Position numbers and translations under genes: made by a program. From Methanocaldococcus fervens AG86 (GTDB lineage: Archaea > AGJL01 > Methanococci > Methanococcales > Methanocaldococcaceae): a stretch of 64,000 bases of DNA. The stretch is from contig NC_013156.1 in the NCBI RefSeq assembly GCF_000023985.1, positions 670,363 to 734,362 on the forward strand, given 5' to 3'. Under the pieces are notes generated by a model. The model was not told where the DNA came from and made no database searches. It worked only from the letters and a program-made list of their open reading frames with translations. Shown here one piece after another: positions 6,994 to 64,000 of this stretch (the stretch's first letter is position 1; the number at the start of each line of letters is the position of its first letter).

Positions 6994-9273
6994 ATGACTG
7001 CATTAATAATATGTGAAAAGCCCAGTGTTGCTAAAAAAATAGCAAACGCTTTAGGAAAAGCTAAGAAAAAAAGCATTGATGGAGTTCCATACTACGAATT
7101 AGAAAGAGATGGGAAAAAAATCATTGTTGCGAGTGCTGTTGGACATTTATTTACTTTAGTTGAGAAGGAAAATAAAGAATTTGGAACCTATCCAGTTTTT
7201 GATGTAAAATGGGTGCCCGCAAGCGTTGATAAAGGAAAAGAGTATGTAAATAAATACATAAAAGCATTAAAAAAACTGTCAAAAGAGGCAAATGAGTTCT
7301 ATGTAGCAACAGATTGGGATATTGAAGGGGAGTTAATAGGTTATCATGCATTAAAATATTGCTGTGGAAGAGAAAAAGCAAAAAGGATGAGATTTTCATC
7401 ATTAACAAAAAAAGAGATCGTTAAAGCTTTTGAAAATCCTGATGAAATTGATTATGGGTTAGTTGATGCTGGGGAGAGCAGGCATATTGTAGATTGGTAT
7501 TTTGGTATAAATTTGTCAAGGGCTTTAATGAATGCCATAAGGGCAGTGAATAGATGGAAAACAATGAGTATTGGTAGAGTCCAAGGTCCTGCATTAGCTT
7601 TTTTAACCGAAAGAGAGTTAGAAATTAAAAAATTTGTCCCAAAACCATATTGGGTTATTGAAGCTCTATTAAAGGATAATTTAAAAGCTATACATGAAAA
7701 GGAAAAATTTTGGGATGAAAAGGAAGCAAAAAATATTTATGAAAAAATAAAAGATGAAAAAACTGCCAAAGTTTTAGAAGTAAAGAAAACAAAAAGAAAG
7801 ATAAAGCCCCTTCCACCATTTGATTTGGGGACTTTACAGAGAGAGGCTTACAGCTATTTTAAAATATCTCCAAAAGAAACGCAAGAAATTGCCCAAAATT
7901 TATATGAAAAAGCTCTTATTAGTTATCCAAGGACAAGCTCTCAAAAACTTCCAAAAGATAGGAAATATTTAGAAGATATTTTAAAAATAATAAAAGAGCA
8001 TCCAATTTATGGAAAATGGGTAGGCAGAATTTTAAAAGATAATTTAAAACCAGTTGGGGGAAAGAAAGAAGATCCTGCACATCCTGCCATACATATTGTA
8101 GATGTCCCAAAGGAAGAACTTTCTGAGAAGGAGAAAAAGATTTATGATTTAATTGCAAGAAGAACTTTAGCTGCATTTTGGGATAACGCAGAGAGAGAAT
8201 ATTTAAACATAAAAATTGACATTAAAGGGGAGATATTTAAGCTATCTGGCTCAAGGACTGTAAAAGAAGGTTGGCATGAAATTTACTACTTCCCAAAATT
8301 TGATGAAGTTGAGCTACCTCCATTAAAGAAAAACGATATAATAAATATTGAAAAAATAACGATAACGAGAAAAGAAACCCAGCCACCAAAAAGATACACT
8401 GTCGCAAGCATAATTAAAGAATTAGAGAAAAAAGGATTAGGAACAAAGGCTACAAGGGCAGAGATTGTAGATAAATTAATAAAAAGAGGTTACGTTGTAG
8501 ATGAAGGTTCTTTAAAAGTAACTGACTTGGGAATTTCAGTAATTGAAACGTTAAAAAGATTCTGTCCAGAAATTATTGATGAAAAGATGACAAGAGATTT
8601 AGAGGAGAAGTTAGAAAAAATACAGTTTAGGAAAATTAAGAAAGATGATGTTTTAGAAGAAGCAGAAAAGAAATTGAGGAAGATATTGGAAGAATTTAAA
8701 AAGAAAGAGAAAGATATTGGAACTTATCTTATAAAAAACTTAGATTCCACAAATAAAAAAGCAAAAATTGTAGGAAAATGTCCAAAATGTGGGGGAGATT
8801 TAATTTTAATTAGATACAATAAAAGCAGGTTTGTTGGTTGCTCTAACTATCCTGAATGTGATGTAAAATACTCTCTACCAGATAAGGGAAGAATAAAAAT
8901 TCCAAATAAATCTTGTGAAGCTTGTAAATCACCTATCTTAAAAATCGGAGACAAGGAGGTTTGTATTAATCCAGAATGTCCTTTAAAATATGTTGAAGTT
9001 AAAGAAGAAAATAAAAAATGCCCTAAGTGCGGAGGGGATTTAATTTTAAAGAAAGGGATTTACGGAGCTTTTTATGGCTGTTCCAATTATCCAAAGTGTA
9101 AATATACTGAGCCGGTAAATAAAAAAGAGAAAGAAGTTGTTGGCAAGTGTCCAAAATGCGGGGGAGATTTAGTAATTAGAGAAGGGAAATTTGGGAAATT
9201 TGCTGGCTGTTCAAACTATCCAAAATGTAAATACACAGAAAAACTAAAAATAGTCGAAAAAGAAGAAAAATAA
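6994..9273 (+). CDS. topA: DNA topoisomerase I (type IA)
   Basis: Relaxes negatively supercoiled DNA by single-strand passage. The 759-residue protein starts with the TOPRIM domain (ALIICEKPSVAKKIANALG; acidic DWDIEGE). It carries the active-site tyrosine in LISYPRTSSQ (Y311) and the EIVDKLIKRGYV region. It ends with four cysteine clusters from about residue 590: three of the form CPKCGGDL...GCSNYPxC and one CEACKS...CINPEC, which are zinc-finger DNA-binding modules. Start at 6994 follows GTGAAATT; a TTG at 6982 is less likely. A short hairpin-repeat-like CTAAAAG precedes it. Orthologue of MJ1652. Confidence 0.95.
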   Translation: MTALIICEKPSVAKKIANALGKAKKKSIDGVPYYELERDGKKIIVASAVGHLFTLVEKENKEFGTYPVFDVKWVPASVDKGKEYVNKYIKALKKLSKEANEFYVATDWDIEGELIGYHALKYCCGREKAKRMRFSSLTKKEIVKAFENPDEIDYGLVDAGESRHIVDWYFGINLSRALMNAIRAVNRWKTMSIGRVQGPALAFLTERELEIKKFVPKPYWVIEALLKDNLKAIHEKEKFWDEKEAKNIYEKIKDEKTAKVLEVKKTKRKIKPLPPFDLGTLQREAYSYFKISPKETQEIAQNLYEKALISYPRTSSQKLPKDRKYLEDILKIIKEHPIYGKWVGRILKDNLKPVGGKKEDPAHPAIHIVDVPKEELSEKEKKIYDLIARRTLAAFWDNAEREYLNIKIDIKGEIFKLSGSRTVKEGWHEIYYFPKFDEVELPPLKKNDIINIEKITITRKETQPPKRYTVASIIKELEKKGLGTKATRAEIVDKLIKRGYVVDEGSLKVTDLGISVIETLKRFCPEIIDEKMTRDLEEKLEKIQFRKIKKDDVLEEAEKKLRKILEEFKKKEKDIGTYLIKNLDSTNKKAKIVGKCPKCGGDLILIRYNKSRFVGCSNYPECDVKYSLPDKGRIKIPNKSCEACKSPILKIGDKEVCINPECPLKYVEVKEENKKCPKCGGDLILKKGIYGAFYGCSNYPKCKYTEPVNKKEKEVVGKCPKCGGDLVIREGKFGKFAGCSNYPKCKYTEKLKIVEKEEK

Positions 9274-51472: not shown

Positions 51473-52347
51473 TATCTCAATTTTTTCCCAATATTTTTCC
51501 CAAGCTCAATTGCCTTATCAATATCATCAATTTTACATTTTACTTCTCCAGAGGCAGTTTTTAGCTCATCCTCAATAACCACTCCAGCATTTAACTTTAA
51601 GACCTCATTTTTTTCATCATAAACCGCTAAAGCTCCAAATGGAACGCTACACCCACCTCCAAATTGATTTAAAGCGGCTCTTTCACAAGATGACCCCAAA
51701 TAAGTTTTTTTGTGGTTGATCTCTTTTAATATCTCTTTTATTTCCTCATCATCCCTTTTACATGCAACGGCTATAATCCCTTGAGCAGGAGCTGGAAGGA
51801 TGTTTAATCTCTTATAGTTAAAATCATCTAAATTAATCCCCAACCTTATTATTCCAGCTTCAGATAGGACTATAGCATCGTAAAGACCATCCTTCAATTT
51901 CTTTAATCTTGTATCTACATTTCCTCTCAGCAATTCAAACCTTGCATTAGGATACAGAAATTTTAAAAAAGCTCTCCTTCTTAAACTTGAAGTTCCTATA
52001 ATTATCTCGCTATTCTCATCAAAATCTACATTTTTATTCCAAATTAATAAATCGTAATAGCTGTCTCTTTCCAAAACAGCCCCAACCATTAAATTTTCAT
52101 TCCAAATAGTTGGAATATCTTTTAAACTATGAACAGCAATATCAATCTCGTTATTTAACATAGCTAAATCCAACTCCTTTGTAAATACCCCAATACCAAT
52201 GTCTGAAAGTTTTTTATTTAAAACCCTATCTCCAGTAGTTTTAATTATCTTTATCTCAACATCGTAGCCAAGATTTTTTAATAACTCAGCTACTTTATTT
52301 GCTTGATATAAAGCTAACTTACTACCCCTCGTTCCTATCCTAATCAT
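51469..52347 (-). CDS. hemC: Hydroxymethylbilane synthase (porphobilinogen deaminase)
   Basis: Polymerises four porphobilinogens into hydroxymethylbilane for sirohaem, F430 and B12. 292 residues. IRIGTRGSKLALYQANKVAELL at the start, HSLKDIPT with the catalytic aspartate region, IGTSSLRRRAFL, LRGNVDTRLKKL and LPAPAQGIIAVACK. The dipyrromethane cofactor cysteine lies in QFGGGCSVPFGALA. It overlaps the convergent dtxR-like gene by four bases. Orthologue of MJ0569. Confidence 0.96.
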   Translation of the reverse strand: MIRIGTRGSKLALYQANKVAELLKNLGYDVEIKIIKTTGDRVLNKKLSDIGIGVFTKELDLAMLNNEIDIAVHSLKDIPTIWNENLMVGAVLERDSYYDLLIWNKNVDFDENSEIIIGTSSLRRRAFLKFLYPNARFELLRGNVDTRLKKLKDGLYDAIVLSEAGIIRLGINLDDFNYKRLNILPAPAQGIIAVACKRDDEEIKEILKEINHKKTYLGSSCERAALNQFGGGCSVPFGALAVYDEKNEVLKLNAGVVIEDELKTASGEVKCKIDDIDKAIELGKNIGKKLRY

Positions 52348-52351
52348 AATC

Positions 52352-53023
52352 TCATTCCTTATCGACTAATTTCGCCTTTTTTATATTACAAACCCCCCAT
52401 GTTTCATGCCATTCAATCTCCGCCTCAATAACCTCTATCCTCTTCTTAAATACTGGGGAGTCAAAAACAAACGTTTCTGCCTCTCCACCTTCAAATGCCT
52501 TATTTATACCATATTTCTCACAAATTTTTAATAATTTATCAATGTTCTCTTCAGTTATTCTTTTTCCTAACCACTCTTTTCCCAATCCATAGGCATAAAC
52601 TCCAACAATCCTTACATCAAAAAGAGAACTTGTAGTTCTTAAAACCCACTCAGGATCTTTATGCCACAATGGAGAGAAAGACTTCAACCCCAACTCTTCA
52701 CAAATCCTATCAATTCTTGATTTTTGATAAACGCTTGCTATCGCTCCGCTAACAATTCCCTCAACATCCAACTTTTCAATTCCTTTTTTTAAATCCAAAA
52801 CTTCTTTTTCCTTCTCTCCCTTTGTGTATATTTTTACCAATGGAATGCCCGCAGCTTTAGAACTAAGTTCTGTTAAATGCACATTTGGTATATGAAACAT
52901 ATAACTCTCTTTGTTTTCACTCTCAACATTTACAAGGTATTTTACATTAAAGCCTTCTTTTAACGCCCAGTATAATGCGTAGTTTGAATCCTTTCCTCCA
53001 GAGTATAGAACTGCAACGTCCAT
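52352..53023 (-). CDS. Dph6-like ATP pyrophosphatase (diphthine--ammonia ligase)
   Basis: 223-residue PP-loop protein. [19 protein letters not shown] is the P-loop, followed by [17 protein letters not shown] and [23 protein letters not shown]. The family end motif is [23 protein letters not shown]. Eukaryotic Dph6 performs the last amidation step of diphthamide on EF-2; the archaeal homologue is presumed equivalent. AGGTGG precedes the ATG. Four bp before hemC. Orthologue of MJ0570. Confidence 0.88.
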
Positions 53024-53063
53024 TAAACCACCTAAAAATCTAAAAATAAATATAAAAATTAAA

Positions 53064-54089
53064 CTATGGGTTTAATCCAACTTCAAATAGCCCCTCTTTT
53101 TCATCAAATCCAAACATTATGTTCATGTTCTGTATTGCCTGTCCACTTGCCCCTTTAACCAAGTTATCTATTGCTGAGATAACCACTAACCTATTATGTT
53201 CATCAATCTCAAAGCCCCCAATGTCGCAGAAGTTTGTTCCTCTAACCCATGTTAATTTTGGAATCTCCTCTGAGAATATCCTAACAAAAAACTCATCCTT
53301 ATAGAATTTTTCATAAACTTTAATTATTTCTTCTCTATCAACATCCTTAGCTAAAAATGTATGTGCGGTTGTTAAAATTCCTCTTGTTATTGGAGCTAAG
53401 TGGGGGGTGAAGGAAACCTTTGCCTTCCCAAGTTTTTTTAACTCTTTTTCAATTTCTGGTGTATGTCTATGGGTTGTTATTTTGTATGGATTTATATTTT
53501 CATTTACATTTGGGAAATGTGTTATTTCAGTTGGATTTACTCCAGCTCCACTAACTCCTGTTTTTGAATCAAATATTATTCTCTCCTCTATAATCCCTTC
53601 TTTAACTAATGGAGCTACAGCTAAAATAGCTCCTGTTGGGAAACATCCTGGATTTGCAACAAGTTGAGCTTTTTTTATCTCCTCCCTATGCAGTTCAGGC
53701 AATCCATAGGCAATTTTTGTTTCTGGTAATCCTTTGTGCTTTATCTTATAATATTTTTCATATAAGCTTAAATCCTCAAATCTATAATCCCCACTTAAAT
53801 CAATAACTTTCATTCCCCTCTCAATAAAATCTGGAACTATGTCCATTGAAGCCCCATGAGGTGTTGCAGTAAATATTAAATCTGCTTCAACCTTATCAAC
53901 ATCTCCTGTAAAATACAGGTCTTTATATTTCTCAATGCCTTTTAAGTGTGGATGAATTTTAAAAACATGCTTTCCAGCTTCTTTTCTTGAAGTTATGTAT
54001 GTTACATTAACTTTTTCATGATTTGCCAGCAGTCTCAACAGCTCAGCTCCAGTATATCCAGTAGCACCAATTATTGCCACTTCCTTCAT
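53064..54089 (-). CDS. argC: N-acetyl-gamma-glutamyl-phosphate reductase
   Basis: NADPH-dependent third step of arginine synthesis (in some archaea also LysW-type substrates). 341 residues. NAD fold [59 protein letters not shown], the catalytic cysteine in [19 protein letters not shown], and [15 protein letters not shown] with the active histidine. GGTGA precedes the ATG. It follows lysA by 29 bp. Orthologue of MJ1096. Confidence 0.95.
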
Positions 54090-54118
54090 ATTTTCACCAA
54101 AAATAAAATAATTTAAAT

Positions 54119-55429
54119 TTATAACAAGTGTGGAGGAACTATATCCTTAGCAATTAAATCTGCATAGCTCTCCCTTTCTCTAATTAAAAACACTCCCTTC
54201 TTACTTGTTAAAACCATTCTTGGTCTTCCTCTTGCATTGTAGTTGTTTGCCATACTTATCCCATAAGCACCCACATCAAATATAGCCAAGACATCTCCAA
54301 CCTCTGGTTTATCAATTTCCCTATCTCTACCAAAGACATCACTACTCTCACAAAGCCCTCCAGCTATACTCACAACCTCTTTTTCATCTTTAACTTTACA
54401 ATTTATTATATGATGGTAAGCGTCATACATAGCTGGTCTCATCATATCGTTCATTCCAGCATCAACCATAACCCACTTTGTTATAGGAGTTTCTTTTATA
54501 TGGTGAACTCTTCCCAATAAATAACCTGCAGTGGCAACTAAACTTCTACCTGGCTCTAATATGAGATTTGGCATCTCTACCTTATCTTTATACTTCAACA
54601 TAGTGTTTATTATTGCATCGGCCAAATCTTTTTGTGTTGGCACTTTTTTATCCTTCTCATAAGGGATTCCTAAGCCCCCACCTAAATTAACATCTCTTAT
54701 TTCTATACCTTCTTCTTTTAATTTAACAACAAAATCCATAACTTTCTCTGTTGCCTCAATAAATGGACTTACATCTGTTAATTGGGAACCAATATGGCAG
54801 TGAACTCCAACAACATTTACATTATCCATTTCTAAAGCCATTTTTATTGCCTTTAAGGCTATTCCACTCTCAACATCCAAACCAAATTTATTTTTCTTTA
54901 AACCTGTTGAAATCTTTGGGTGAGTTTTTGGATCTACGTTTGGATTTATTCTAAAAGCTACATTTGCCACTTTTCCAAGCTCTTTTGCTGTTTCATTTAT
55001 CAAAATTAACTCACTTATGCTATCAACATTAAAAGCCCTAATATTTGCCTCAATTCCCATTATAATCTCTTCTTTTGTCTTACAGTTTCCATTAAAAACA
55101 ATTTTCTCTGAAGGAACATTTGATAACTTCGCTATATACAGCTCTCCACCACTTACAACATCTGCCCCACATCCTAATTTAGATAAAAGCTTTGTAATAG
55201 CCAAATTTGCATTTGCTTTATAGGCATAGGCAACAATAAACTCCTTTCCTGTTTCTTCTTCCCATCTTTTAAACGCTTCAATATATTTGTTATAATTTAT
55301 CTTTATCTGCTCCTCTGACATTACATATAAAGGTGTTCCAAACTTCTCTGCCAATTCAATTGCATCATAACCATCTATAAAGAATCTTCCGTCCTTTATT
55401 TCTACTGTATCATTGCCTAAAAATTTCAT
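54119..55429 (-). CDS. lysA: Diaminopimelate decarboxylase
   Basis: PLP enzyme for the last step of lysine synthesis. 436 residues, alanine-racemase fold III. The PLP lysine is in [16 protein letters not shown]. It also has [83 protein letters not shown] and the second-subunit cysteine motif [17 protein letters not shown] precedes the ATG. Orthologue of MJ1097. Confidence 0.96.
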
Positions 55430-55506
55430 AAAATCACCATCTTTTTATTATTTTTAGTAGGTTTTATAATTCTTTAACTTATTATTATTGTTTTTGATTA
55501 TTTATT

Positions 55507-55531
55507 TTTGCATTGGTGCAAACCTTTATAT
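55507..55531 (+). promoter_or_regulatory. hsdM promoter with overlapping palindrome
   Basis: TTTGCA-TTGG-TGCAAA (55507-55522) is a perfect inverted repeat immediately before CCTTTATATA (TATA, about 65-70 bp upstream of the hsdM start). The palindrome overlaps the BRE position, where a bound protein would block initiation. Confidence 0.5.
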
Positions 55532-55594
55532 ACAGTATTGTGGTACAGGTTATATAGTTAAAACATTAAAATAACTATCTAAGTTGGTGATACC

Positions 55595-57328
55595 TTGAAA
55601 ATTGAAAATGTTGAACCAAGGTTTTTGAAGGCATACAATATATTAATGGAGAAATTTGGACTGTTTCCATTTACATATGATATGGCTGAAAAGGTTCTTA
55701 AAGATAACTATGAAAATGTTAGTGAAGTTTTGTCTAAGTTGGTAGATGCTGGATTATTAGAGAGAAGAGCAAAAAAGGAAGATAAAAGAAAGAAGATTTA
55801 TAAGATAAAGCCATTGGGTAATGGAAAAATTGAAAAGGTAAGTAAAGATAAATTAATTAGCTTACTTAAACAAGGAGCTGATTTGATAAGAACGCATGTG
55901 GATTATAAAGTATTGTTATTATTTTTATTTTTTAAGGCGATTAGTGATAAATATCTATTAAAAGTTGCTGAATTAAAAGAAGAGTTTGAAGATTTGAATG
56001 AAGAGGATATTTATGTGTTGGCTAATGAGGAAATTTTAGAGCTTTATGATGTTGAGGGTAAAAAGTTGTATGTATGGCAGAATGTTGCCAATAATCCAGA
56101 GGATTTTATAACTGCATTAAATAAAATTGTTGAGATGAATAGAGAAAAATTGAGCGGGTTGGATGAGTTAATAAAAAGAACTGGACTCCCCACATTATTT
56201 GAAAATGAAAACAGGCAGATAGTTCAACATTTAATTAATTTATTTAGTAGGGCTGACTTTTCAGAGGCGTCTTATGATATATTAGGGGATGCCTATGAAT
56301 GGACTTTAAATTATTTTGCTCCAACAAAGGCAAAGGAGGGAGAGGTTTATACTCCTATTGAAGTTAGCAAATTAATTGCCCATTTGGTTGAGCCAAGAGA
56401 TGATGAAGTAATTTTAGACCCTGCGTGTGGTTCTGGTTCTATGTTGATAGAGCAGTATAGATTTGCAGGTAGTAATCCAAATATTGTATTGGTTGGACAG
56501 GAAAGGAATGACGTAACTGCTGTTTTAGCAAAGTTGAATTTTATACTGCATGGAATTAATTTAAAAGATGCTAAGGTGTTTATTGGCGACTCTTTACTAA
56601 ATCCAAAGTTTGAGAGTTTTATTAAAGAAGTTAAAAAAATAGATAAAGCTGATAAGGTTGTAGCAAATCCACCATGGAATCAAGATGGTTATGATGAAGA
56701 TACTTTAAAAGTTAATGAAAAGTATAATTATATTTACAAATATGGATTTCCAAATAAAAACTCTGCTGATTGGGCGTGGGTTCAACTTATAAATTATTAC
56801 ACTGAAAAAAAGGCAGGTATTGTATTAGATTCAGGAGCTTTGTTTAGGAGTGGGAGAGAAAAAACAATAAGGAAGAAATTTGTAGATGATGATTTAATTG
56901 AGGCAGTTGTTTTATTGCCTGAGAAGTTATTTTATAATTGTCCTGCACCAGGGATTATTTTAATTTTGAATAAGAATAAACCAGAAGAAAGAAAAGGAAA
57001 AATTTTGTTTATAAATGCCTCTAATGAATATGTTAAGCATCCAGAAGTTAAAAAATTAAATAAACTATCTGATGAGAACATTGAGAAAATAGCAAAGGCA
57101 TATAAGGAGTTTAAGGATGTTGATGGCTTTTGTAAGGTTGTAGATATTGAGGAGATTAAAAATAATGACTATAATTTAAATGTTTCCTTGTATGTTTTTC
57201 CAATTGAAGAGGATGAGGATATTGATTTAAATGAGGTCTATGATGAGCTTAATAAATTGCATAATGAATATTTGGAGAAGTTTGAGGTTGTTAAAGGTTA
57301 TTTAGAGGAGATTAAGGAGATTAAATAA
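55595..57328 (+). CDS. hsdM: Type I restriction system methyltransferase subunit HsdM
   Basis: N6-adenine DNA methyltransferase of a type I system. 577 residues. An unusual N-terminal winged-helix-like region (about 1-75; ILMEKFGLFPFTYDMAEKVLKDNYENVSEVLSKLVDAGLLERR) precedes the HsdM helical domain (about 80-250). The catalytic fold follows: EVYTPIEVSKLIAHLVEP, ILDPACGSGSMLIEQYRF (SAM motif), VVANPPWNQDGYD (NPPW active site, about residue 358) and LPEKLFYNCPAPGIILILN. The start is a TTG at 55595 after GGTGATACC. It is followed by hsdS 18 bp later. Confidence 0.95.
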   Translation: MKIENVEPRFLKAYNILMEKFGLFPFTYDMAEKVLKDNYENVSEVLSKLVDAGLLERRAKKEDKRKKIYKIKPLGNGKIEKVSKDKLISLLKQGADLIRTHVDYKVLLLFLFFKAISDKYLLKVAELKEEFEDLNEEDIYVLANEEILELYDVEGKKLYVWQNVANNPEDFITALNKIVEMNREKLSGLDELIKRTGLPTLFENENRQIVQHLINLFSRADFSEASYDILGDAYEWTLNYFAPTKAKEGEVYTPIEVSKLIAHLVEPRDDEVILDPACGSGSMLIEQYRFAGSNPNIVLVGQERNDVTAVLAKLNFILHGINLKDAKVFIGDSLLNPKFESFIKEVKKIDKADKVVANPPWNQDGYDEDTLKVNEKYNYIYKYGFPNKNSADWAWVQLINYYTEKKAGIVLDSGALFRSGREKTIRKKFVDDDLIEAVVLLPEKLFYNCPAPGIILILNKNKPEERKGKILFINASNEYVKHPEVKKLNKLSDENIEKIAKAYKEFKDVDGFCKVVDIEEIKNNDYNLNVSLYVFPIEEDEDIDLNEVYDELNKLHNEYLEKFEVVKGYLEEIKEIK

Positions 57329-57346
57329 ATATTTTTTGGTGATTTT

Positions 57347-58006
57347 ATGAAATTTTATAAAGAGGAGAATTTTAAAGAGATTGATGGGTTGAGAGTTCCA
57401 GAGGATTGGGATGTTGTTGAGTTGAAGGATGTTTGCAAAAAAATAAAAGCAGGAGGAACTCCAAAAACCAGTGTAAAAGAGTATTATGAAAGCGGAACAA
57501 TTCCATTTGTTAAAATTGAAGATATAACTAACTCAAATAAATATTTAACTTATACGAAGGTAAAAATAACTGAAAAGGGTTTAAATAATTCCAATGCATG
57601 GATAGTTCCGAAAAATTCTGTATTATTTGCTATGTATGGAAGTATTGGAGAAACTGCAATAAATAAAATAGAGGTAGCTACAAATCAGGCAATTTTAGGA
57701 ATAATACCAAAAGGGGAAGTTTTGGAGAGTGAATTCCTGTATTATATTTTAGCCAAAAACAAAAATTATTATTCTAAATTAGGAATGCAAACAACACAAA
57801 AGAATTTGAATGCTCAAATAGTGAAAACTTTTAAAATCCCTCTTCCACCAATAGAAGAACAGAAAGCAATAGCTGAAAGATTAAAATCTATTGATGAATT
57901 AATTGAAATAAAAAGAAAAGAAAAAGAACAATTAGAAAAAGCAAAAAAGAAAATCATGGATTTACTACTAACTGGAAAAATAAGAGTAAAAAATTTAAAT
58001 TCTTAA
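57347..58006 (+). CDS. hsdS: Type I specificity subunit HsdS, half-size
   Basis: DNA-recognition subunit with a single target-recognition domain. 219 residues against about 400-450 for ordinary HsdS. The recognition domain opens with LRVPEDWDVVELKDVCKKIKAGGTPKTS, and has IPFVKIEDITNSNKYL and SVLFAMYGSIGETAINK. The conserved helical spacer is PPIEEQKAIAERLKSIDELIEIKRKEKEQLEKAKKKIMDLLLTGKIRV. With one domain it probably works as a dimer and reads a symmetric bipartite site. The reading frame is closed and no second half follows, so it does not look like a recent truncation. GGTGAT precedes the ATG. Confidence 0.9.
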   Translation: MKFYKEENFKEIDGLRVPEDWDVVELKDVCKKIKAGGTPKTSVKEYYESGTIPFVKIEDITNSNKYLTYTKVKITEKGLNNSNAWIVPKNSVLFAMYGSIGETAINKIEVATNQAILGIIPKGEVLESEFLYYILAKNKNYYSKLGMQTTQKNLNAQIVKTFKIPLPPIEEQKAIAERLKSIDELIEIKRKEKEQLEKAKKKIMDLLLTGKIRVKNLNS

Positions 58007-58034
58007 AATAAATTTTTTATTTCAGGTGAATAAA

Positions 58035-61000
58035 ATGCCAATCCCCGAGATTTATGTCCATAGGAATATAGAAGGAAATTTAAATAAATTGGGTTGGAAA
58101 CCATTGGATGAATCATTTTATAATGAAGCATTTAACAACTACATAATAAAACCAATCTTAGAGGAGCAATTAAAAATTATAAATGACCATATAGAAGAAT
58201 ACAAAGAGGAATTTATTGAAAAAGCAATAAATAAGCTAATAAATGAGCAGAAACCAGAGAATATTTTGGACTATATTAAAAATGGGATATTAATAACATT
58301 AGATAAAGGAAGAAAAGGGCAAGTTTCTAATAGGGTTAAATTAATTGATTACAAAAATATTGAGAAAAATGTTTTTAACTATGCTCATGAACTAAAATTT
58401 AAAGGAAACGACAATATTATCCCAGATTTTACATTATTTGTTAATGGAATTCCCATAATTATTATAGAGGCAAAAAGAGAACTATCTGAAAAAGAAACTT
58501 ATGAAGAGGCAATAAATCAAATAAATAGGTATGAGAGGGAAGCTCCTAAACTATTCAGCTATGTGCAGTTTGCCATTGCCTATGGAGATGAAAAACTTTA
58601 TATTTCAACATACCCAAATGAAGAAAAAGAAGATAGATTTAAAAAGCCATACAAATGGAAAAATGTGAAAAAAGAGGAGGATATTTGGGATTTGTTAAAA
58701 AGGGAGAGGGTTTTAGATATAATAAAGAACTTTATATTTTTTAGTAAGGACAGGGCTGGGAGAAAAACTAAAATTATCCCGAGGTATATGCAATATTGGG
58801 CTGTAAAAAAAGCTTATGAGAGAATAATCAACTACCTAAACAACGAAGATTATAAAAATAGGGGCTTAATTTGGCATTGGCAGGGAAGTGGGAAAACCTT
58901 TGAAATTATTTATTTGGCGGAAATATTTTATAACGAATTTAAAAACAGAGACCCTATTGTTTTTATAATGGTAGATAGGAGGGAGTTGGAGAATCAGTTT
59001 AATGATGACATAATTGCCTTACAAAATATAACATTTAAAGAGAGTTTTAAAAGAATTGAAAGTATTGAAGAACTTAAAAAAGTTTTAAAAATAATAAAAG
59101 AGTCAGAAAAAAATATAAACATTTCAGGAAAGGGAGTTTATTTGGTTATGATGCACAAATTTGATAAAAATAAATTAAATGACTTTATAAACTCATTTGG
59201 CTCAATTGATAAAAAAGAAATTTTGATTTTGAGAGATGAAGCACATAGAACTGAATCAGGAAAATTTGCAACTCTAAGAAACAAAATTTTAAAAAATGCC
59301 ATTGCAATTGGTTTTACTGGAACTCCAATTCATAAAAAAGATGCAAGCACGTTTAAGGAATATGCCTACCCAAAAGAAGGAGAGTTTTACTTAGACAGGT
59401 TTTTTATTGAGGAATCAATAAAAGAGGGCTTTACCTTACCTCTAATTTGGAGAGTTGTTAAACCAGAAGATATAAAAGATATTTCAGAGGAAGAGATAAA
59501 AAATATTATAGAAAAATTGTTTGTTGATGAAGAGGATGCTGATAAGATTGTTGTATCCAAAAAGGAAATTGCTGAAAAGATAAAATTATCTGATTTATTA
59601 AAAAGTGAAAGTAGTATAAGGGAGGCATCCAAATATATAGCAAATAACATTTTAGAAGACACTGAGAACTTTAAATTTAAAGCGATGGTTATAGCACAAG
59701 ATAGGAAGTCATGCATTTTATTTAAAAAATATTTAGATAAATATCTTAAAGAAAAGATAAGGGACTACGATGAAAACTGGACTCAGGTTGTTATAACTTA
59801 TCAGCACAATGATGAGGTAGAAATTGAGAACTACAAAAAGATGATTGAAAATAGGTATAATAAAAATGTGGATGAATTAAATAAAGAATGGGCTGACAAG
59901 TTTAAAACTTCAAATGAGCCAAAAATTTTAATAGTCAATAAAAAACTATTAACTGGTTTTGATGCACCTATATTAAAAACTATATACCTCCACCAATTTC
60001 TTAAAGATTACTTATTACTCCAAGCATCCGCAAGGGCAAACAGACCAGCAAAAAATAAAAAATATGGGCTTATTGTTGATTTAACAGGAATATTAATTGA
60101 GAACTACAAAAAGGCAATTGAAAACTATAATTTATACAGAGATGAAGCAATAAATAAAGATATTTTAAACAACTTATTTGTTGAGACGTCAAAGATTTGG
60201 GAGAGTTTTTTAACAAAGTTGGATGAATTTAAAAAGTTATTTAACTCAATCGTTGGAATTGATTTTAATAATTTCATTGAAAACTTAAAAAAACATAAAG
60301 AGCCAGAAAAAGAATTTAAAAAGATTATAGCCAAAATTACCCTAAGCGATAAATTTGATTATTTTTATACAAAACTTAGAGAACTTATCCAATTATTTGA
60401 GGCAGTTGGAGCTTATGGGGAAAAGCTAAATTATTATGAAATGTATGAATGGTTAAAATTATTATCCGCTGGAATAAACAAGCAAACAAAGCCAAAGAGC
60501 TATAAAATTCCATACAATAGAATAAAAAAAGAATTAATAAAATACTTAGAGTTTGATACTTATAAGGACATTGCCTCAATCCCTCTGGACCTAAAACTAT
60601 TGAAGAACTTAAAAGAAGATGAATTTAATGTAATTGTTGCTAATATAATTTATTTTGCCTTAGACACCACTAAAAACAAAAAAGAGCCGATATATAGGAT
60701 TATATACAATAGAATAAAGGAATTGAAAAATGAATATATAACAAGAACCAAAAAGAGCGAGGAGGTAATTAACGAATTGATAAATTATTTAAATTCATTA
60801 AAAACCTATGAAGAGGAAGAAAAATCATTATCAAATTCAGATAAGGCATTAAAAAATATATTGTTCTATTTAAATTATATAAAAAATTGTAATATCAGAA
60901 AACTTCCATTAACTGAAAAGACCTTAAAAAATTTGGAAGATAAAAAATTAATAAAACCAAGTGATTTTGATAAAATTAAAAAATTCTTATTTATTGATTT

Positions 61001-61085
61001 GAGAAATGCAATTAAAGAAACTGAAAAAAGAAGAAAAATGTCAAACAAGATAGTTGAAGAGATTATTAAACCAATTTTTACATAA
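58035..61085 (+). CDS. hsdR: Type I restriction subunit HsdR
   Basis: DNA translocase and endonuclease of the type I complex. 1016 residues. The nuclease domain shows DNIIPDFTLFVNGIPIIIIEAKRE (PD...ExK, about residue 145). Motor motifs: GLIWHWQGSGKTFEIIY (Walker A, about 285), FIMVDRRELENQF, LILRDEAHRTESGKF (DEAH, about 402), GFTGTPIHKKD, LLTGFDAPILKTIYLHQFLKDYLLLQASARANRP (motifs V-VI). All key residues are present. I start at ATG 58035 after AGGTG. It ends nine bp before the metalloprotease gene. Confidence 0.96.
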   Translation: MPIPEIYVHRNIEGNLNKLGWKPLDESFYNEAFNNYIIKPILEEQLKIINDHIEEYKEEFIEKAINKLINEQKPENILDYIKNGILITLDKGRKGQVSNRVKLIDYKNIEKNVFNYAHELKFKGNDNIIPDFTLFVNGIPIIIIEAKRELSEKETYEEAINQINRYEREAPKLFSYVQFAIAYGDEKLYISTYPNEEKEDRFKKPYKWKNVKKEEDIWDLLKRERVLDIIKNFIFFSKDRAGRKTKIIPRYMQYWAVKKAYERIINYLNNEDYKNRGLIWHWQGSGKTFEIIYLAEIFYNEFKNRDPIVFIMVDRRELENQFNDDIIALQNITFKESFKRIESIEELKKVLKIIKESEKNINISGKGVYLVMMHKFDKNKLNDFINSFGSIDKKEILILRDEAHRTESGKFATLRNKILKNAIAIGFTGTPIHKKDASTFKEYAYPKEGEFYLDRFFIEESIKEGFTLPLIWRVVKPEDIKDISEEEIKNIIEKLFVDEEDADKIVVSKKEIAEKIKLSDLLKSESSIREASKYIANNILEDTENFKFKAMVIAQDRKSCILFKKYLDKYLKEKIRDYDENWTQVVITYQHNDEVEIENYKKMIENRYNKNVDELNKEWADKFKTSNEPKILIVNKKLLTGFDAPILKTIYLHQFLKDYLLLQASARANRPAKNKKYGLIVDLTGILIENYKKAIENYNLYRDEAINKDILNNLFVETSKIWESFLTKLDEFKKLFNSIVGIDFNNFIENLKKHKEPEKEFKKIIAKITLSDKFDYFYTKLRELIQLFEAVGAYGEKLNYYEMYEWLKLLSAGINKQTKPKSYKIPYNRIKKELIKYLEFDTYKDIASIPLDLKLLKNLKEDEFNVIVANIIYFALDTTKNKKEPIYRIIYNRIKELKNEYITRTKKSEEVINELINYLNSLKTYEEEEKSLSNSDKALKNILFYLNYIKNCNIRKLPLTEKTLKNLEDKKLIKPSDFDKIKKFLFIDLRNAIKETEKRRKMSNKIVEEIIKPIFT

Positions 61086-61094
61086 TGTGATAGA

Positions 61095-61451
61095 ATGAGA
61101 GATAAAATAAACGATATCCTAAATAATACAATAAGGGAGTTAAATCTAAATGATAAAAAAGCAGATATAAAAATAAAAATAAAGCCATTTAAAAGAAAAA
61201 TCGCCTCTATCTCATTGACTAATAAGACCATTTATATTAACAAAAATGTCCTTCCATACCTAACTGATGAAGAAATAAAATTTATTTTTGCTCATGAACT
61301 CTTGCATCTAAAATATGGAAAATACCACATAAATGAATTTGAAAATGAACTCTTATTTTTATTCCCAAACAAAGAAGAAATTTTAATAAACATCATAAAA
61401 AAGTTACTTAAATATAATAATTTAAATAATAACGCCCGGGAGGGGATTTGA
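61095..61451 (+). CDS. Small HExxH metalloprotease (YgjP/SprT-like)
   Basis: 118-residue protein with the zinc motif FAHELLHLKYGKYH (HExxH, residues about 66-70). It is preceded by IASISLTNKTIYINKNVLPYLTDEEIKFI, the strand-helix order of YgjP/DUF45 and SprT-like zincins. It is short; the third ligand may be the His or Glu in KYHINEFENE. Proteins of this kind are frequently found just downstream of hsdR in bacterial type I operons. Here it is nine bp after hsdR, with GTGATAG upstream of the ATG. Its last six or so codons lie inside the tRNA-Arg gene on the opposite strand. Function (possibly control or turnover of the restriction complex) is inferred. Confidence 0.75.
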   Translation: MRDKINDILNNTIRELNLNDKKADIKIKIKPFKRKIASISLTNKTIYINKNVLPYLTDEEIKFIFAHELLHLKYGKYHINEFENELLFLFPNKEEILINIIKKLLKYNNLNNNAREGI

Positions 61452-61507
61452 ACCCCTGACAACTGGCTCCGCAGGCCAGCGCCCTATCCTGGCTAGGCGA
61501 CCCGGGC
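61433..61507 (-). tRNA. tRNA-Arg (anticodon GCG)
   Basis: On the minus strand the sequence folds into a full cloverleaf. The acceptor stem is GCCCGGG/CCCGGGC. The D-arm is GCCT..GGGC, with loop AGCCAGGATA. The anticodon stem is CTGGC/GCCAG, around loop CTGCGGA (anticodon GCG). The T-arm is AGGGG-TTCAAAT-CCCCT. Discriminator base G; CCA is not encoded. No intron. It reads CGC/CGU arginine codons. The 3' end overlaps the metalloprotease gene by about 19 bases. Confidence 0.96.
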
Positions 61508-61568
61508 TCTACTATTAAAAAAGCTCTACTATCAAAAATTTAAAATTTTAAAATATAAAATTAAAAAT

Positions 61569-62276
61569 CTACTTACAAAGCTCTTTCAACTCTCTAACTA
61601 ACTCTCTATCTATTCTACCGTTATTTCTATCCCCTCCTTTACATACAGCCCCCCTAACACCAACGATATCAGTTCCAATCTCCTTTAATATAGGGATATG
61701 TTCCTTCTTTATTGAACCAGCTAAAGCACATTTCAACCCATAATCATGAGATTCTTGAACAAACTCTTCTAAAATTTCCTTGCTTTGGAAGTCAAACAAT
61801 GTTTTTCCATCTTTTACAGCAGTGTCTAACATTGCAACATCACAACCAGCATCCCTTGCAATCTTTGGAATTATTAATGGCTCAACCGCTCCAACCCTGT
61901 GGGCATCTGCATATCCGGCAGCAACAACTATTTTATTTTCATCAATATCCTTAACTGCCCTAACAACATTTTTCATTAATTCAACTCCTTCATAGTAATT
62001 TTTAACTCCATATAATCCAACTTTTATATAATCAGCTCCACTTATTGCCGCTCCAACTGCAGCTAAAGAGATGGTTCCTGGTTTGAATGGGACATCTCCA
62101 ACTGTTGCACTTACTAATAGCTCTTTTGGTGTTACTTCTCTAATTGCCTTAATCATCCATGGGAAGTTAGCCCCTAAGGAACCCTCTTTTGGATTTTTTA
62201 CATCTATGATATCAGCTCCTCCAGCTATTGCTTCTTTCGCCTCTTCAACGTCTATAGGACTTACCAATAGTATCAT
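61569..62276 (-). CDS. mfnB: 4-(hydroxymethyl)-2-furancarboxaldehyde-phosphate synthase
   Basis: Builds the furan ring of methanofuran from two glyceraldehyde 3-phosphates. 235-residue TIM barrel (DUF556). [39 protein letters not shown] holds the catalytic lysine region. [65 protein letters not shown] and [12 protein letters not shown] complete the barrel. AGGTG precedes the ATG. Orthologue of MJ1099. Confidence 0.95.
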
Positions 62277-62451
62277 AACGTTACACCTGTGATATTGATT
62301 TTAAAATTAAATAGGAGTTTCACAATTTTATACCTTTACTTCGGAACATGCAATTCATATAAATATTTACTCTTGTGCTTATTAACAACAATGCATATAA
62401 AAACTTAATGTTAATTATGGTTTTGTTATTACTTTTTTATATGGTGGAAAC

Positions 62452-63801
62452 ATGGGAAGATTATTTGGGACTTCTGGAATAAGAATGAAAAATTTATCTC
62501 CAAAAATTGCCTATAAAGTGGGATTGGCTATAGCTAAAAAATATAAAAACGTTGTGATTGGAAGGGATACGAGAACTACTGGAAAGTTGATTGAAACTGC
62601 TTTAACAGCAGGAATTTTAAATGGAGGAGGGGAGGTCACTACTATAGATATTGTCCCAACACCTGTTTTAGGTTTTAACGCAAGAAATTACGATGTTGGA
62701 GTTATGATTACAGCATCTCACAACCCTCCAGAATACAATGGAATAAAACTATTTAACAAAAATGGTTTAGCTTTTAACAAAAAAGAAGAAGATGAGATAG
62801 AGAAGATTATATTTAAAGGAGATTTTGTTGAAGTAGGATGGGATAAAGTTGGAAATATTTGGGAAGATTGCAGGGCAATAAGAAATTATATGGAATACAT
62901 TCTAAAAAATGTTGATATAAATGAAAAATTTAACGTGGTTGTTGATTGTGCAAACGCCTCTGCCTGCTTAGTATCCCCATATCTATTTACAGATGTTGGA
63001 TGTCATGTTATATCGGTTAATAGCCACATGGATGGAAGATTCATCGGTAGAATGCCAGAACCTAATGAAAAAAACTTAAAAAAGACAATGAATATGATTA
63101 AAGGTTTAAATGCTTATGGAGAGGGGTATATAGGCATAGCCCATGATGGAGACGCAGACAGGATGGTGGCAATAGATGAAAAGGGAAGGTTGGCTGATTT
63201 TGATAAGCTATTAGCTGCTTTTTCAAGATACATCGTTGAAAAAACTGGAAATAAAAAGATTGTTACAACAGTAGATGCCTCAATGATTATTGATGAATAT
63301 CTAAAAGATTTAGATGTTGAGATAATAAGGACAAAAGTTGGAGATGTGGCTGTTGCCGAGGAGATGATTAAAAACTCAGCTATTTTTGGTGGAGAACCTA
63401 GTGGAACATGGATTCATGCTGACATACATCTAACTCCAGACGGTATTTTAAGTGGATTGAGGATTTTGGAGATGTTAGAATTTTACAACAAAAGATTGTA
63501 TAAGATATTGGATGGAATCCCATCTTATATAAATTTGAGGGAAAAAATTCCATGTGAAGATGGTAAAAAGGAAAAAGTAATGGAATATGTTATTGAGAAT
63601 GGGGAGAGTTTGTTTAAAACAACTCCTGAAACAGTTGATGGGGCAAGATTTAATTTAGGAGATGGTTGGATTTTAATAAGACCTTCAGGAACTGAGCCAT
63701 ATATAAGAGTTAGAGTTGAAGCTAAAGATGGAATTTTAGCTAAGGAGCTGTTGGATAAAGGGATAAAATTGGTTAAAAATGCCTTAAGAGCGGTGAGTTA
63801 A
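62452..63801 (+). CDS. glmM: Phosphoglucosamine mutase (phosphohexomutase family)
   Basis: Converts glucosamine-6-phosphate to the 1-phosphate on the route to UDP-GlcNAc. 449 residues. GRLFGTSGIRMKNLSP, NVVIGRDTRTTGKLIE, the phosphoserine loop GVMITASHNPPEYNGIKLF, the metal loop GIAHDGDADRMVAID, sugar-binding IFGGEPSGTWIH and phosphate-binding RPSGTEPYIRVRVE. The M. jannaschii orthologue (MJ1100) was assigned phosphoglucosamine mutase activity as I recall. The next gene starts directly after its stop. GGTGG precedes the ATG. Confidence 0.92.
   Translation: MGRLFGTSGIRMKNLSPKIAYKVGLAIAKKYKNVVIGRDTRTTGKLIETALTAGILNGGGEVTTIDIVPTPVLGFNARNYDVGVMITASHNPPEYNGIKLFNKNGLAFNKKEEDEIEKIIFKGDFVEVGWDKVGNIWEDCRAIRNYMEYILKNVDINEKFNVVVDCANASACLVSPYLFTDVGCHVISVNSHMDGRFIGRMPEPNEKNLKKTMNMIKGLNAYGEGYIGIAHDGDADRMVAIDEKGRLADFDKLLAAFSRYIVEKTGNKKIVTTVDASMIIDEYLKDLDVEIIRTKVGDVAVAEEMIKNSAIFGGEPSGTWIHADIHLTPDGILSGLRILEMLEFYNKRLYKILDGIPSYINLREKIPCEDGKKEKVMEYVIENGESLFKTTPETVDGARFNLGDGWILIRPSGTEPYIRVRVEAKDGILAKELLDKGIKLVKNALRAVS

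Positions 63802-64000
<199 letters not shown>

Follow-up and report, generated by a model that had tools for sequence, protein, structure and literature searches.

Unmodified sites that arise in a host genome are a threat, exposing the host to its own Type I restriction enzymes. Control of these enzymes is understood to depend on ClpXP in Types IA and IB and to operate by assembly in Type IC (PMC12707154). The closest functional precedent for the locus described here is EcoKI, where ClpXP degrades HsdR during long-lived translocation, so that proteolysis of HsdR serves as host protection (PMC4231737); there the protease is a housekeeping AAA+ enzyme, whereas the enzyme predicted from our operon is a dedicated zinc protease that needs no ATP. 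A review of host-dependent restriction published in 2025 makes no mention of metalloprotease, metallopeptidase or SprT (PMC12707154).

A second point of comparison is the RRDM island of E. coli E2348/69 (RptR, hsdMSR, DarTG2 and an M48 peptidase; PMC12255303). The likeness lies in an M48-family gene downstream of hsdR and in the further defence genes that separate hsdS from hsdR; our operon differs in having neither RptR nor DarTG, in its half-size HsdS and in its minimal, 118-aa peptidase. In the passages that deal with the island, that paper characterises RptR and the island as a whole and reports no test of the peptidase, and it is in this one E. coli island that a pairing of hsdR with an M48 gene has previously been noted (PMC12255303).

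Half-size specificity subunits are a known working Type I variant, exemplified by EcoDXXI truncations and EcoR124NT, and paired half-size S subunits can act on symmetrical sites (PMC3874165, PMC3320862). EcoR124I (Type IC) has a TIGR00348-like HsdR, as our operon does, and its engineered half-S form, EcoR124NT, acts on a symmetrical site (PMC3320862).

For the protease, the nearest described protein is selecase, a metallopeptidase of Methanocaldococcus jannaschii whose monomer is active and whose dimer and tetramer are inactive (PMC10808063). This protein, MJ1213, has been described as a structure, an in vitro peptidase and a metamorphic protein; our literature search found no paper assigning MJ1213/selecase a biological role or linking selecase to restriction, and nothing about restriction in work on COG1451 and YgjP. 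A 2011 survey of defence islands reportedly may place COG1451 in the vicinity of Type I genes. Wss1 and Spartan (SprT), proteases that act on DNA-protein crosslinks, share a minigluzincin-like protease fold and remove DNA-bound proteins (PMC4559962, PMC5557861); unlike our 118-aa protein, they are eukaryotic and have DNA- and Cdc48-binding regions.

A four-gene Type I operon

In the window – the whole stretch of DNA analysed, 64,000 nucleotides from the genome of a Methanocaldococcus, a thermophilic methanogenic archaeon – the ORF listing contains four same-strand genes at 55595-61451, hsdM, hsdS, hsdR and a metallopeptidase gene (Table 1), as an earlier note on this DNA had claimed. HsdM is a gamma-class N6-adenine methyltransferase by its match to PF02384 (N6_Mtase), and its PDB matches are Type I M subunits. 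HsdR scores 768 bits against TIGR00348, and both the HSDR_N nuclease and the SWI2/SNF2 motor were found. HsdS has a single Methylase_S domain (Pfam) over its 219 residues, so that the earlier reading of one recognition domain holds, against the two target recognition domains (TRDs) expected of Type I. Judged from its sequence, the locus is a Type I restriction-modification system, with the half-size HsdS variant. Intergenic gaps are 18, 19 and 9 bp; the 28 bp previously given for the second applies only with the ATG start of hsdR, the GTG start giving 19.

Table 1. Features of the operon and its surroundings (window coordinates)
Feature	Position	Strand	Description
hsdM leader, 38 nt	55554..55591	+	inverted repeat ATAGTTA-N11-TAACTAT at 55554-55578; candidate operator
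hsdM	55595..57328	+	TTG start, 577 aa; N6-adenine methyltransferase, Type I; PF02384 381 bits
hsdS	57347..58006	+	219 aa; half-size specificity subunit, one TRD, mosaic; 1yf2/MJ0130 homologue
hsdR	58026..61085	+	1019 aa; restriction/translocase subunit; GTG start, or in-frame ATG at 58035
Metallopeptidase, minigluzincin/selecase type	61095..61451	+	118 aa; HELLH 61293-61307, third His codon 61326-61328
tRNA-Arg(GCG)	61433..61507	-	ARAGORN; convergent with operon, bounds insertion site

The operon had also been described as running into a tRNA gene. The metallopeptidase ORF does overlap the 3' end of tRNA-Arg by 19 nt, but the tRNA lies on the minus strand and the operon converges on it. Comparison of the site among relatives shows lysA adjoining tRNA-Arg, with no operon between them, in two genomes (G001 and G006), and for this reason the operon is most simply read as an insertion into a site empty in relatives. 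The contact with the tRNA is therefore incidental. A mobile element integrated at the tRNA was considered and rejected: a second copy of the tRNA-Arg end was not found at the left boundary of the operon, and no integrase was recognised by eye among the ORFs at 52000-64000.

A mosaic hsdS and recent compaction

The sister genome G011 carries the operon at the same site, with an HsdM protein 98% identical, a near-identical hsdR and a protease 99% identical to those of the window. Its hsdS, however, is full-length (388 aa) and is separated from hsdM by three small genes and from hsdR by two. The window hsdS is composite: its two ends closely follow those of the G011 hsdS (98.6% identity over 57353-57424, 99.5% over 57833-58014), while 57356-57878 (nucleotide breakpoints) is 88% identical to the region of MJ0130. 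At the protein level, residues 31-160 match the first TRD of MJ0130 at 121 of 130 positions and the C-terminus is of the operon's own HsdS type. The window hsdS is, by this pattern, a recent recombinant or mosaic. We take the G011 layout as older because it is shared with other relatives; on that footing one TRD and the cargo genes would have been lost recently. The compactness stressed in the earlier note is real in the small gaps seen here, but, since the sister operon has extra genes on both sides of hsdS, it appears, like the half-size HsdS, to be recent and peculiar to the window genome. The target of an HsdS homodimer is predicted to be a palindromic bipartite site.

The interval around hsdS is variable elsewhere. 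On G011 contig 36 (L234, 294-3427) hsdS is surrounded by five small genes, one of them nucleotidyltransferase-like, and MNT/HEPN-like genes also lie between hsdS and hsdR at loci L012 and L015, which marks the surroundings of hsdS as a cargo hotspot. In a protease-bearing operon of an Arcobacter plasmid (L115:345-5919), SLATT, DUF87 and RNA-binding-domain genes are inserted between hsdS and hsdR. The hsdS of the second M. jannaschii operon (L015:13179-14455) is split into two overlapping frames, whereas the PDB 1yf2 chain is full-length at 425 aa; this may be a sequence difference.

The metallopeptidase belongs to the selecase group

The fourth gene encodes a protein with HELLH at residues 67-71, on the scale of the minigluzincins (an HExxH motif in a domain of about 100 residues). 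It is 83% identical to MJ1213 (PDB 4qhf-4qhj, which we take to be the selecase structures) with the same HELLH-x6-H-x3-FE layout. A PDB search returned MJ1213 (E=5e-51), projannalysin (4jix, 6e-12) and proabylysin (4jiu, 2e-8), the matches covering the whole small domain. By these comparisons the metallopeptidase is the MJ1213 ortholog, a minigluzincin of the selecase group, i.e. a shortened YgjP/SprT-like protease; the original guess at a YgjP/SprT-like family was right and can be made more exact.

Pfam is ambiguous for this protein (M56, M48, YgjP and SprT). Its best Pfam match, M56/BlaR1, was rejected, as there is no membrane part and the solved minigluzincins match far better. Against PF01863 (YgjP-like) the window protein scores 21.6 bits, below the curated cut-off of 26 bits, and relatives at L014, L015 and L016 score 37-40 bits, above it; the profile is matched in its C-terminal half only, and it is through this half that close relatives pass.

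Several variants were seen among the homologues. The hsdR-linked protease of an Acidilobaceae MAG (G120; L056:4989-5357) has RELMH in place of HExxH, and is perhaps inactive, or perhaps reflects an error in the MAG. In G031 (L218) the YgjP-like gene after hsdR is split between two frames, one matching the N-terminal and the other the C-terminal half; the minimal form might have arisen through a split of this kind. In G035 (L059, ~7940-8209) a minigluzincin reading frame has no hsdR nearby and a neighbour that begins like an ATPase, and is possibly a remnant of a lost operon. At L014:6751-9813 (G008) the protease gene is intact and hsdR is broken by a stop or frameshift.

hsdR and the protease are paired in archaea and bacteria

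Within 36 genomes of the phylum, 14 of 18 YgjP-like loci lie, by coordinates, directly after hsdR. The archaeal survey that the earlier note had proposed was then run over 297 genomes, taking as hsdR the 68 genes above the TIGR00348 cut-off and as paired any YgjP-like gene on the same strand no more than 2.6 kb downstream of the TIGR00348 match. The association proved to be conserved: 38 of the 68 have a YgjP-like gene directly downstream, none has one upstream or on the opposite strand, and random placement would give 0.06. Reading the loci by eye adds three, two HExxH proteins missed by Pfam (G048 and G241) and the RELMH protein of G120, bringing the count to 41/68; four further hsdR loci run off their contigs. 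In most pairs the two genes either overlap (1-68 bp) or have fewer than 20 bp between them, the spacing of translationally coupled genes. About 40% of archaeal hsdR genes have no partner, so the protease is dispensable for Type I systems in general; M. jannaschii (G003) itself has two chromosomal operons with the protease, in one of which the gene directly after hsdR encodes MJ1213, and a plasmid operon without it. The neighbour common to all protease-bearing loci is HsdR, and the other genes between hsdS and hsdR vary.

By annotation, hsdR is followed by a SprT/M48/YgjP gene in plasmids of the bacteria Arcobacter, Klebsiella, Acetobacter, Mycolicibacterium, Methylocystis and Neotabrizicola, and likewise in plasmids of the archaea Haloarcula and Haloferax. 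Searching with the Klebsiella protease gene gave matches in 557 of 5,426 complete E. coli genomes (10%), and in nine of ten rows sampled across the ranking the match overlapped hsdR. This distribution bears on the proposal that in archaea, which lack ClpXP, a dedicated protease could provide an analogous control. A search for ClpP (TIGR00493) found none in any of the 14 Methanocaldococcus genomes but did detect it in bacterial controls, so that ClpXP-dependent alleviation is not available there. However, bacteria that have ClpXP, E. coli included, carry the pair as well, so the protease cannot simply substitute for ClpXP; the idea of an archaeal replacement was rejected, the presence of the gene following HsdR lineage instead.

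The protease is inherited with one HsdR lineage

When presence of the protease is mapped on a FastTree phylogeny of 72 HsdR sequences, only 3 changes are required, against a mean of 19.4 for shuffled traits (0 of 500 as low). Adding 15 more bacterial and haloarchaeal plasmid sequences (87 rows) leaves the count at 3 against 26.4 shuffled, and although the protease-bearing plasmid rows were found via the protease, their placement in the tree is independent of that. An IQ-TREE phylogeny without long branches and near-copies requires 2 changes against 22.2. The HsdR of EcoR124I, unlike that of the window, groups with protease-free operons. Pairwise distances of HsdR and protease are correlated (r=0.81; best of 2000 permutations 0.15). 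As common descent alone would raise r, this is evidence of joint inheritance of the two genes and not of contact between their products. HExxH and the third histidine are retained in 47 of 48 otherwise highly divergent proteases. The pairing thus appears to be a property of one large HsdR lineage that spans archaea and bacteria, the protease being present or absent according to the HsdR tree.

Possible targets of the protease

In the mechanism that we propose, HsdM2 and a homodimer of half-size HsdS would methylate the predicted palindromic site and HsdR would contribute translocation and cleavage. The minimal zinc protease, structurally akin to Wss1/Spartan, would then cut its own system's HsdR complex while this is engaged on DNA, sparing the host chromosome at unmodified sites (a built-in restriction alleviation), clearing long-lived complexes from DNA, or both. 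Engaged HsdR is the simplest substrate because the gene follows hsdR, is co-inherited with it, keeps its active site and encodes a fold that elsewhere removes DNA-bound proteins; these features are observed, and from them proteolysis in the cell, HsdR as its substrate and the benefit to the host are inferred. Counting against it are the presence of the lineage in ClpXP-bearing cells, the one RELMH member, the many archaeal hsdR genes that have no partner and the stand-alone YgjP proteins away from hsdR. To this reading, a Type I system of four genes in which the protease targets HsdR complexes bound to DNA, whether for control or for clearance, we give roughly even credence.

Alternatively, the protease could be an effector or counter-counter-defence, directed at phage or host proteins once restriction has failed or been inhibited. 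Its association with a defence system speaks for this, as do the other defence cassettes in the operons. However, it is tied to one HsdR lineage and not spread over defence systems, YgjP-like genes away from hsdR lie in ordinary neighbourhoods (L060, L061 and L064), and the autoinhibition of selecase by oligomerisation is in itself no hint of a phage trigger. We regard such a role as unlikely.

Still less likely, in our view, is a derepression switch in which the protease would cut a DNA-binding protein that regulates the operon (in our case the winged helix of HsdM, in E. coli RptR), after the manner of CapP/CapH or ImmA/ImmR. What suggests it in the window is the N-terminus of HsdM, for which an HTH-like domain had been claimed. 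Matches to winged-helix models (HTH_27/MarR) are weak (HTH_27 E=4e-4, residues 38-71); the single-sequence predicted fold of residues 1 to ~75 runs H-H-H-E-E, a winged-helix-like topology (mean pLDDT 72.5), and Foldseek matches are MarR-like, all with E of at least 0.03, the fold search giving no match with E <0.001. The claim stands in the softer form of a predicted winged-helix-like extension. Upstream, the leader with its inverted repeat sits between a TATA-like box (TTTATATA, 55525-55532) and the hsdM start. It is conserved in an alignment of five genomes, where the sequence further upstream diverges, and is kept although the genomic sites differ. Among 14 genomes the 7-bp inverted-repeat pattern (≤3 mismatches) is confined to the region upstream of this hsdM and turns up in 4 of them, with 0 hits for the reversed control. 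Autoregulation through extension and repeat may be inferred, and the RRDM island unites a repressor, RptR, with hsdMSR and an M48 gene, its authors citing CapP/CapH in discussing possible proteolysis of RptR in the passages on this point (PMC12255303). Yet HsdM lacks the extension in the protease-bearing operons of L062, L063 and L065, and the HsdM of the protease-bearing Klebsiella and Acetobacter plasmids is annotated at only ~508 aa; a winged helix on HsdM as general partner of the protease was rejected on this account. The neighbour in common is HsdR and no regulator, and in the same passages the RptR authors prefer a phage-derived trigger (PMC12255303).

A non-catalytic subunit with a chaperone-like role in keeping HsdR or its assembly stable would fit the gene order and overlap, as expected of co-translational assembly, and the loss of the first zinc histidine in one member; against the retention of the zinc motif in 47 of 48 very divergent proteins, we consider it distinctly improbable. 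That the protease is a hitchhiking housekeeping enzyme whose adjacency means nothing functionally is scarcely credible, for although many genomes have lone YgjP-like proteins and 80 of 118 archaeal loci are not beside a TIGR00348 hsdR, the number of adjacent pairs, their bias in orientation, their fidelity to lineage and the correlated divergence far exceed chance.

Returning to cleavage of DNA-engaged HsdR, a broader version holds that a major Type I lineage is inherently four-component, with a dedicated minigluzincin/YgjP protease that would sense and dismantle engaged HsdR; the role of selecase would then be restriction control, with its concentration-dependent fold switching setting the activity. 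This we put forward tentatively, at somewhat less than even credence.

Implications

That the pairing recurs through a large branch of restriction systems points to a protease of their own, which probably serves to control the nuclease or to remove it. If true, such a large lineage would represent a third way of controlling Type I enzymes. As 10% of complete E. coli genomes carry the pairing, the idea is testable in ordinary laboratory strains, and the pairing places selecase, a benchmark metamorphic protein, in a possible physiological setting.
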